Translations under genes and position numbers: made by a program | Notes under the pieces: model-generated | The model's database searches: none | What the model was told of the DNA's origin: nothing | The model's input: only the letters and a program-made list of their open reading frames with translations | Part shown: positions 7,185-10,665 of the stretch, in pieces | Numbering within the stretch: position 1 is the stretch's first letter | Layout: each line of letters opens with the position of its first letter | Assembly (NCBI GenBank): GCA_937859745.1 | Contig: CALMAQ010000200.1 | Location: 1 to 42,075 of the forward strand | DNA from: an uncultured Verrucomicrobiota bacterium | Lineage (GTDB): Bacteria; Verrucomicrobiota; Verrucomicrobiia; Chthoniobacterales; SZAS-18 | Length of the DNA stretch: 42,075 nt | Direction of reading: 5' to 3'

Positions 7185-7823
7185 ATGATGCATCACCTCT
7201 TGGAAGTCTGGTATGGCTGGGTCGAACATGGCGGTTATTGGGGTATCGCCCTGCTGATGGCGATGGAAAGCTCCATCATCCCCGTGCCGAGCGAGATCGT
7301 CATCCCACCGGCCGCCTTCCTGGCCGCCCAGGGACAGTTGAGCTTTCCCGGCGTGATCCTTGCGGGCACGGCGGGGTCCTACCTCGGCTCGGCGGCGTCC
7401 TACTGGCTCTCGCTCTGGATCGGCCGTCCCTTGATCCTGCGTTATGGCCGGTACTTCCTCCTAGGCGAAGACAAGATCGCCCGCGCCGAAATCTGGCTGC
7501 AACGGTACGAGGCAGGCGGCATTTTCTTTGCCCGCCTGTTGCCAGTGATCCGCCACCTGATTTCCATTCCGGCGGGCCTGGTTCGGATGAACTTCACCGT
7601 GTTTTCCGCGGTGACGATCGCCGGCGCGGCGATCTGGTGCAGCTTCCTCGCTTATCTCGGCGACAGGCTCTACCACCTGCAACCCGACCTGATCCAGAAG
7701 CCCGAAGCGTTGGAGCAGTTGGTCAAGCACCAGTCACTTTCAATCATCGCGGTCATCTTCATCGCAGCGATCCTTTACTTTGTCATGCTGCGCCTCTCCA
7801 CCAGGAAGTCAGAAGCCGCGTAG
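7185..7823 (+). CDS. DedA family membrane protein
   Basis: 212-residue polytopic inner-membrane protein of the DedA/SNARE-associated (VTT) family, whose members act in lipid flipping and envelope homeostasis. Family marks are the early ESSIIPVPSEIVIPPAAF (conserved Glu and Pro-Ser-Glu motif), GSYLGSAASYWLSLWIGRP, and the motif FFARLLPVIRHLISIPAGLVRMN, matching the family's F-x-R-x-x-P and G-x-x-x-M signature. A further membrane segment (LSIIAVIFIAAILYFVM) is at the C-terminus. Two adjacent ATGs (7185 and 7188) are equally possible starts; no strong ribosome-binding site is seen. It is transcribed away from the ABC exporter. Confidence 0.93.
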   Translation: MMHHLLEVWYGWVEHGGYWGIALLMAMESSIIPVPSEIVIPPAAFLAAQGQLSFPGVILAGTAGSYLGSAASYWLSLWIGRPLILRYGRYFLLGEDKIARAEIWLQRYEAGGIFFARLLPVIRHLISIPAGLVRMNFTVFSAVTIAGAAIWCSFLAYLGDRLYHLQPDLIQKPEALEQLVKHQSLSIIAVIFIAAILYFVMLRLSTRKSEAA

Positions 7824-7880: not shown

Positions 7881-7912
7881 GACAAAAGTGTCAGTTGGTG
7901 GACACTTTTGTC
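7881..7912. promoter_or_regulatory. Perfect 12-bp inverted repeat, candidate activator site
   Basis: GACAAAAGTGTC (7881-7892), an 8-base spacer and GACACTTTTGTC (7901-7912) form a perfect inverted repeat in an A+T-richer stretch downstream of the dedA-family gene. Its centre is about 120 bases upstream of the predicted start of the sigma-54 promoter at 7992-8008. That is a usual place for an enhancer-binding-protein dimer site. It is not followed by a T-run, so an intrinsic terminator for the dedA-family gene is less likely. The repeat is seen; the operator role is inferred. Confidence 0.55.
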
Positions 7913-7991
7913 ACAAAGTTCGGGGGAGTTTCTTCCAGGAAATGCAGCCATAAAACGCGGTTCTACTCTGGAAACTTGTCCTGCGGATCAG

Positions 7992-8008
7992 TTGGCACCG
8001 CGCTTGCT
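7992..8008 (+). promoter_or_regulatory. Sigma-54 (-24/-12) promoter
   Basis: The sequence TTGGCAC, five bases, TTGCT fits the RpoN consensus TGGCAC-N5-TTGCW without a mismatch. The invariant GG is at 7994-7995 and GC at 8006-8007, with the required ten bases between them. Transcription would start near 8019, leaving a leader of about 45 bases before the 60-residue gene at 8064. Sigma-54 promoters need an activator ATPase bound upstream, and the perfect inverted repeat at 7881-7912 is a good candidate site. Neither rpoN nor an activator gene is in this window. Confidence 0.7.
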
Positions 8009-8063
8009 TTTGAACGCTACGCCAATCGACAACGTCTGAACAAACCAGCCCGCACAATTTTTT

Positions 8064-8246
8064 ATGAAAAAGCAAGACCGCAAGCTTCACCGCCACACCA
8101 TGAACTTGGGTGACCTGATCATGACCGTCAGCTCCTGCGCCAAGAACAGCCGTGAGACGGTTGCGACGGTTGCCGACCTGCTGGCGAGCGGGCGCGTCCT
8201 CCTCCATGCGAACGGGCATGCATCCCGCGCTCAGGTAGTCCGCTAG
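8064..8246 (+). CDS. Small orphan protein of 60 residues
   Basis: Short frame beginning MKKQDRKLHRH and continuing with MNLGDLIMTVSSCAKNSRETVATVADLLASGRV. The body reads as two amphipathic helices around a single Cys, ending in a basic, polar tail. There is no signal peptide or membrane segment. An alternative start is the Met at 8100 (48 residues). I do not recognise a family. Support for a real gene: it sits about 45 bases behind a canonical sigma-54 promoter and is followed 25 bases later by a strong hairpin, so the transcript would be well delimited. No clear ribosome-binding site precedes either ATG. It could also be a leader peptide for purB. Confidence 0.55.
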   Translation: MKKQDRKLHRHTMNLGDLIMTVSSCAKNSRETVATVADLLASGRVLLHANGHASRAQVVR

Positions 8247-8270: not shown

Positions 8271-8323
8271 CGCCAGTTGGAAGATCTCCGCCCGGAGATC
8301 ATTTCAACTGGCGTTTGCATTTT
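8271..8323 (+). terminator. Compound hairpin between small gene and purB (terminator or attenuator)
   Basis: Outer arms CGCCAGTTG (8271-8279) and CAACTGGCG (8305-8313) enclose an inner palindrome GATCTCCG (8283-8290)/CGGAGATC (8293-8300). The T-rich TTTGCATTTT (8314-8323) follows, so it resembles an intrinsic terminator. A competing hairpin ATCTTCC (8265-8271)/GGAAGAT (8279-8285) uses bases from both the outer and the inner 5' arms, so the two folds exclude each other, as in attenuators. It lies 30-80 bases before the purB start. Pairing is seen; regulation is inferred. Confidence 0.55.
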
Positions 8324-8352: not shown

Positions 8353-9648
<1,296 letters not shown>

Positions 9649-9719: not shown

Positions 9720-10665
9720 ATGGGCAAGCAGAAGGTGACACGGCGCGAGCGGTTTCTGGACGAGATGGAGCAGGCCGTGCCGTGGGCACGACTGGTGGCC
9801 TTGATCCAGCCGTTCTATCCGCAGAGCAAGCGGTGCCGCCCACCGTTGGGAGTCGAGTTGATGCTGCGCGTGTACTTTTTGCAGCAGTGGTACGCGCTGG
9901 CGGATGAGGCCTTGGAAGATGCCATCCATGATAGCCGTGCCATGCGCGCCTTTGTCGGCGGTGACATCGTGCCCGATGTCACCACTTTGCTTGGCTTTCG
10001 CCACCTGCTCGAAGCGCACGATCTGACCCGCCAACTCTTTGCCGAGATCAACGCCGTGCTCTCCGAGCGCGGGGCGTTTTTGCGTGAGGGCACCATCGTG
10101 GTGGATGCGACCATCATCGCGGCGGCCCCCTCCACCAAAAACAAAGCGAAGGCACGCGCCCCCGAGATGCACCAGACCAAGAAAGGCAACGCGTGGCACT
10201 TCGGGATGAAGGCGCACATCGGCGTGGACCTGGGCAGCGGGTTGGTGCACACCGTTGTCGGAACGGCGGCCAACGTGGCCGATGTCAGCCAAGCCCACGC
10301 GCTGCTGCACGGCGAGGAGAAGCTGCGCCTCTGGGTGACGCGGGCTACCAGGGCGTGGAGAAACGTCCGGAGATGATCGCGCGCTTCGGGCCTCTGCCCT
10401 GGATCCGTGGCGGCCAAGCGCGGCAAGATCAAAGCCATGGCCGAGGGCAAACTCAAAAGAACTCACGCTGGCCCTGGAGAAGACCAAAGCGCAGCTACGT
10501 GCCCTGGTCGAACACCCTTTTCACGTCCTCCAAGAACCTCTTTGGGCCGCAAGGTGCGCTACCGGGGTCTGGCCAAGAACACGGCGCAACTCTACAGCCT
10601 CTTTTGCCTTGGCCAACCTCGTGCTCGTCGGGCGCACTCTGCACTCGCAGGAAGTGACGGCATAG
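9720..10665 (+). pseudogene. IS5-family transposase, frameshifted
   Basis: The N-terminal 200 residues are intact from the ATG at 9720. They hold a DUF772-like region (PQSKRCRPPLGVELMLRVYF) and the start of a DDE nuclease with the first Asp in TIVVDATIIAAAPSTKN, then WHFGMKAHIGVD. Near 10,330 one base appears lost in a G-run and the frame moves to GDAGYQGVEKRPEM (second Asp). Shifts near 10,400 (to AAKRGKIKAMAEGKLK) and near 10,455 (to ELTLALEKTKAQLRALVEHPF, carrying the Glu) follow, then several more between 10,530 and 10,610. The remnant ends HSQEVTA at the TAG at 10663-10665. At least five frame changes make it non-functional, unless the indels are sequencing errors. Confidence 0.85.

Follow-up and report, generated by a model that had tools for sequence, protein, structure and literature searches.

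A conserved predicted sigma-54 promoter with a fixed-distance candidate activator site upstream of an undescribed small gene in Chthoniobacterales

What controls the small gene located between a membrane protein gene and purB in an uncultured member of the Chthoniobacterales, and what kind of product does it encode? The window, that is the whole stretch of DNA analysed (42,075 nucleotides), contains the sigma-54 motif TGGCACCGCGCTTGCT at 7993-8008 with GG and GC spaced by ten bases, just as an earlier note on this DNA had described it. Further upstream lies a perfect 12-bp inverted repeat, the arms of which are GACAAAAGTGTC (7881-7892) and GACACTTTTGTC (7901-7912), with a loop of 8. It is located 152-183 bases 5′ of the ATG (8064) and approximately 105-140 bases 5′ of the sigma-54 start expected near 8019. 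No other perfect inverted repeat with arms of at least 12 and a loop of 3-20 is present in the window, and none occurred in six shuffles. A search of the 4.13-Mb genome for further copies, as proposed in the earlier note, found only this occurrence. Genome-wide motif work consisted of pattern searches, which gave nine strict sigma-54 motifs in the whole genome.

Both repeat arms are dyads in themselves with the form GACA-N4-TGTC, which occurs 25 times in the genome, the two arms included, versus 13 times for the reversed control. Relatives retain the proximal dyad and a TGTC located 8 bases 5′ of it, and the perfect 12-bp symmetry is confined to this genome. Here the TGTY half-site is extended to a second dyad, which results in the perfect repeat. 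Thus, the arms lie where the earlier note had placed them, but the conserved putative binding unit is GACA-N4-TGTC and not the 12-bp repeat.

Table 1. Features of the small-gene locus (window coordinates).
Feature	Coordinates	Strand	Basis or remark
DedA/VTT-domain membrane protein (UptA-like, below cut-off)	7185..7823	+	upstream neighbour
Distal candidate activator dyad GACA-AAAG-TGTC, second copy	7881..7892	.	mostly this genome only; relatives retain mainly the TGTC/TGTT half
Inner half-site pair TGTC-N8-GACA	7889..7904	.	N8 or N9 retained in relatives including Chthoniobacter flavus
Proximal candidate activator dyad GACA-CTTT-TGTC	7901..7912	.	92 bases 5′ of the -24 element; conserved
Predicted sigma-54 -24/-12 promoter TGGCAC-N5-TTGCT	7993..8008	+	motif in window and conservation in relatives
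Predicted ECF-type promoter TTGAACG-N16-CGTCTGA	8010..8039	+	motif and recurrence; absent from the earlier note
60-aa small protein gene, undescribed family	8064..8246	+	homologues, selection; predicted strand-helix-helix-strand-strand
Strong hairpin followed by T-rich tract, likely terminator before purB	8271..8313	+	folding -33.9 kcal/mol, z = -5.6
purB, adenylosuccinate lyase	8353..9648	+	downstream neighbour; adjoins the small gene in most relatives

Conservation was analysed in 97 non-redundant loci, with expected counts taken from dinucleotide shuffles. A -24/-12 score of at least 9 of 11 was reached at 79 of the 97 loci (0.9 expected) and a score of at least 10 at 59 (0.12 expected); the promoter was also found in the named strain Chthoniobacter flavus Ellin428 (L133). 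The activator site was analysed at the 79 loci having the promoter and enough upstream sequence, with positions measured from the TGG. RACA-N4-TGTC with at most one mismatch is present at -87 to -93 in 54 of these (0.26 expected) and the exact motif in 19 (0.02 expected), and the positions concentrate at -88 to -92. The consensus of the 54 sites is gTGTTcAAAAAttgRACAcAAGTGTCa, which includes a TGTY half-site 8-9 bases 5′ of the dyad. Columns outside the motif are nearly without information; therefore, the motif is not accounted for by shared descent of the entire region.

The GG-N10-GC pair in a TGGCAC-N5-TTGCW context thus occurs together with an upstream site at a fixed distance and with rpoN in the genome. 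Since rpoN is present in all genomes that are at least 90% complete, this one included, loss of rpoN is not the reason why some families have no sigma-54 site. Altogether, a predicted sigma-54 switch is conserved across many genera, far beyond chance. The earlier note had made its reading, an activator-controlled unit for a small protein, depend on conservation of the GG-N10-GC pair and the repeat in relatives; with the promoter at 79 of 97 and the fixed-distance site at 54 of 79 loci, this reading stands.

Two versions of a combined site-plus-promoter pattern were run against the 57 genomes. The first matched ten times and the second eight times; in each case six matches are located at the small gene, and the reversed control gave 0. 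The other six matches lie within long ORFs and were therefore taken as chance. The activator site seems to serve the small gene almost alone in this search, which weaker sites would escape.

The best candidate for the protein acting at this site is EBP-A, an enhancer-binding protein (EBP) of the response-regulator type, which has a receiver domain, an AAA+ domain with GAFTGA and a Fis domain. The genes are arranged pgi - small kinase - EBP-A - glnD, with rpoN at a distance of three genes in this genome. The partner is a small histidine-kinase gene without sensor domain; its Pfam detection is weak in G051 and below detection here. In a quick tree of 77 EBPs from 16 genomes, the EBP-A orthogroup comprised all seven site-bearing genomes and G008, which carries a GACA-N3-TGTC variant of the activator site, and none of the eight others. 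EBP-A orthologues scored above 500 bits in a direct search of the 57 genomes, and all other EBPs at most 316. Among the 30 genomes with the upstream region read, the site was present in 8 of 13 with EBP-A versus 0 of 17 without (Fisher p = 0.0002, uncorrected for kinship and based on few independent lineages). All eight site-bearing genomes carry EBP-A; the five genomes with EBP-A and without a clean site are G004, G042, G034, G046 and G008, some of them with a degenerate one. Family f4, which groups with f3 within the f1/f3/f8 clade (one EBP subtree), has neither EBP-A nor the sigma-54 site nor the UAS. EBP-A is thus likely to be the activator of the small gene, and we infer that it binds the site; it could have further targets with weaker sites. 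Scores against known regulators were 293-310 bits for GlrR (cut-off 763), 361.5-384.5 for PrsR (TIGR02915, cut-off 502.6) and 386-396 for NtrC (TIGR01818, cut-off 558.6), and these three identities were rejected.

Alternatively, promoter and site might be real and be used by another EBP (for instance EBP-B, the PilR-like or the PspF-like one), with EBP-A simply occurring in the same lineages, which we regard as rather unlikely. All seven site-bearing genomes in the tree carry EBP-B as well, yet it occurs in f4, which has no site, and is absent from G008 with its site-like element; as an activator it is therefore disfavoured. The pilin promoter of this genome has TGTC-N8-GACA at -118, so the small gene is not the only one with TGTC/GACA half-sites; this promoter, however, does not contain GACA-N4-TGTC, and PilR-like and core EBPs are found in lineages without the site.

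The genome survey also yielded observations on other EBPs and sigma-54 loci. In EBP-B (L037 and orthologues; families f1, f8 and f4), GAFTDA replaces GAFTGA in the sigma-54 contact loop. L038 (G000:C65:1251-1748) is an EBP frame with an in-frame TGA and is similar to L035; it is a possible pseudogene or contains a sequencing error. A receiver-less PspF-like EBP (L039/L064, G000:C225:35021-35705) adjoins a PspA/IM30-like gene, and nearby a sigma-54 promoter precedes the gene for an 83-aa membrane protein that may be a Psp component not recognised so far. The pilin promoter mentioned above is the sigma-54 promoter of a type IV pilin-like gene (L065, G000:C253:769-784, + strand). The sequences that come after the sigma-54 motifs at L061 (G000:C167:407-422, - strand) and L067 (G000:C326:22285-22300, + strand) resemble each other and contain no evident conserved ORF; the common sequence, cgttcgtgca...cgaacgggg...aaaggcagcctg...ggggg, might represent related sRNAs or leaders under RpoN.

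Just downstream of the sigma-54 motif is a second, ECF-type promoter. A match of at least 11 of 14 was found at 48 of the 97 loci (1.4 expected) and of at least 12 at 28 (0.07 expected). It has a GAAC -35 and a CGTC-type -10 element, with a spacing within the 15-17 range of ECF promoters, an arrangement common to other envelope genes: in exact searches of five genomes TTGAACG-N15/16-CGTCTRA precedes skp-like chaperone genes that follow a bamA-like gene, and the motif is also found before phoB-like regulators (two genomes) and an L,D-transpeptidase-like gene (this genome), all these names being by-eye readings of translations. ECF-motif loci outside the small gene are L081-L085, L080, L092 and L087. 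This suggests that the motif marks a possible regulon for envelope stress in the order.

Both promoters are present at 34 of the 97 loci, only the sigma-54 promoter at 45, only the ECF promoter at 14 and neither at 4; some lineages have the ECF promoter in place of the sigma-54 promoter. The ECF promoter lies downstream in family f1, overlaps in f8, f3 and f6, and is located approximately 38 upstream in part of f8 and approximately 60 upstream in the Chthoniobacter group. In f8, f3 and f6 (offsets -8 and -10) it is the ECF spacer that the sigma-54 motif overlaps, and TGGCAC-N5-TTGCT might be a by-product of an ECF promoter that alone matters. This is highly improbable in view of the 45 loci that retain the sigma-54 motif without a good ECF promoter, the several relative geometries and the fixed-distance site that accompanies the sigma-54 motif.

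Homologues of the 60-aa protein were found in 47 of the 57 genomes of the order. In a genome collection, homologues were also found at at least 80 loci from Verrucomicrobiota; most of these are of Chthoniobacterales/Spartobacteria type, with Chthoniobacter flavus Ellin428 and Ca. Udaeobacter among them. Between close relatives pN/pS is 0.10-0.36 (about 0.2), which indicates purifying selection, and eleven columns are invariant across 65 sequences (nine to eleven invariant residues). Judged by homologues and selection, the ORF is a real conserved gene. Two family f5 genomes have a tandem second copy (L011 and G010:C35:30961-31131; L029 and G019:C82:19513-19680).

A transcript acting mainly as a small RNA in the fashion of GlmY, with the ORF secondary, is very unlikely: the control layout resembles that of glmY and the short transcript would end in a strong terminator, but pN/pS and the invariant residues argue for a protein, and Rfam gave no match. 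The leader peptide suggested in the earlier note, or an attenuator of purB, is very improbable and was rejected. In most relatives purB does follow the small ORF directly, and a strong hairpin separates the two, but the amino acid sequence of the ORF is under purifying selection, the hairpin is likely to be a strong terminator, and the gene occurs without adjacent purB in seven genomes (G010, G011, G019, G020, G027, G034 and G054), with the tandem copies in G010 and G019. A simple terminator scan had overlooked this hairpin, its loop-and-stem limits being too narrow; folding reveals it. Directly after purB (window 9720-10376) an IS5-type transposase-like ORF is visible, with a 3′ end that by eye is possibly truncated or frameshifted. 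A plasmid search found nothing.

The earlier note had assigned the protein to no recognised family, and this was borne out: no family was found in Pfam, NCBIfam or PDB, and the profile matches of family members are weak and inconsistent. The AlphaFold model shows strand-helix-helix-strand-strand with a pLDDT of about 90 on the second helix and 76 overall, and a pTM of 0.56. This fold is predicted with only moderate confidence; its layout is that of a winged helix minus its first helix. WHB and DEP domains are winged-helix folds; a Foldseek comparison with solved structures gave nothing significant, the two weak matches being to WHB and DEP domains with E above 6. A small regulator of winged-helix type would be the likeliest reading of the protein, and we propose it tentatively.

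Taken together, we think it probable that EBP-A with sigma-54 and, separately, an ECF factor control a one-gene small-protein unit that ends before purB. A signal from the partner kinase would activate a response-regulator EBP, for which EBP-A is the best candidate. Its dimers would bind RACA-N4-TGTC and the upstream TGTY half-site about 90 bases 5′ of the -24 element and switch on sigma-54 polymerase at 7993-8008. Independently, an ECF sigma factor of the envelope-stress type might use the promoter at 8010-8039; we infer that both promoters fire. Transcription would stop at 8271-8313, 5′ of purB, and the product would be a small cytoplasmic protein, possibly a minimal winged-helix-like regulator produced in response to nitrogen or envelope stress.

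Members of the Chthoniobacterales, such as Chthoniobacter and Ca. Udaeobacter, rank among the most common bacteria in soil, and our literature search yielded no description of a sigma-54 regulon for this order. The analysis provides a conserved promoter, the consensus of its site, a probable activator and a new protein family. With ECF and sigma-54 promoters stacked in some lineages and swapped in others, the small gene offers a natural series for studying promoter exchange. It is possible, if doubtful, that a glnD-linked kinase/EBP pair with approximately one target per genome, a winged-helix-like micro-regulator, is combined here with envelope-stress ECF wiring through swapped or stacked promoters. 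If true, this would be a new verrucomicrobial stress switch linking nitrogen status and envelope stress.

How does this locus compare with known systems? With NtrB/NtrC and GlnD it shares a kinase and an NtrC-like regulator adjoining glnD, and a sigma-54 promoter also precedes glnB in this genome. The activator site is unlike an NtrC site, and the order-wide EBPs belong to orthogroups other than EBP-A. The PEP-CTERM system PrsK/PrsR has a similar plan, with a motif 5′ of the sigma-54 site found by phylogenetic profile, a kinase/response-regulator pair and single-gene units; its spacer averages 63 nt, it has many targets per genome, and its motif is confined to Proteobacteria (PMC1569441). In E. 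coli glmY, a sigma-54 promoter overlaps a second promoter and QseF/GlrR acts at TGT-N12-ACA; its other target is rpoE (PMC6075780; PMC8745638). Common to glmY/rpoE P2 and the small gene are a response-regulator EBP with upstream TGT/ACA-type half-sites, a sigma-54 promoter that overlaps another promoter belonging to the sigma-70 class, a link to envelope homeostasis, a small transcript and few targets. In contrast to TGT-N12-ACA, the site described here is RACA-N4-TGTC with TGTY 8-9 bases 5′ (N10/N11 and an added N4 dyad), the second promoter is of ECF type, the product is a protein and not an sRNA, and the EBP-A gene adjoins glnD and not its target. The control predicted for the small gene works like that of glmY but is neither the QseF/GlrR nor the PrsR system.
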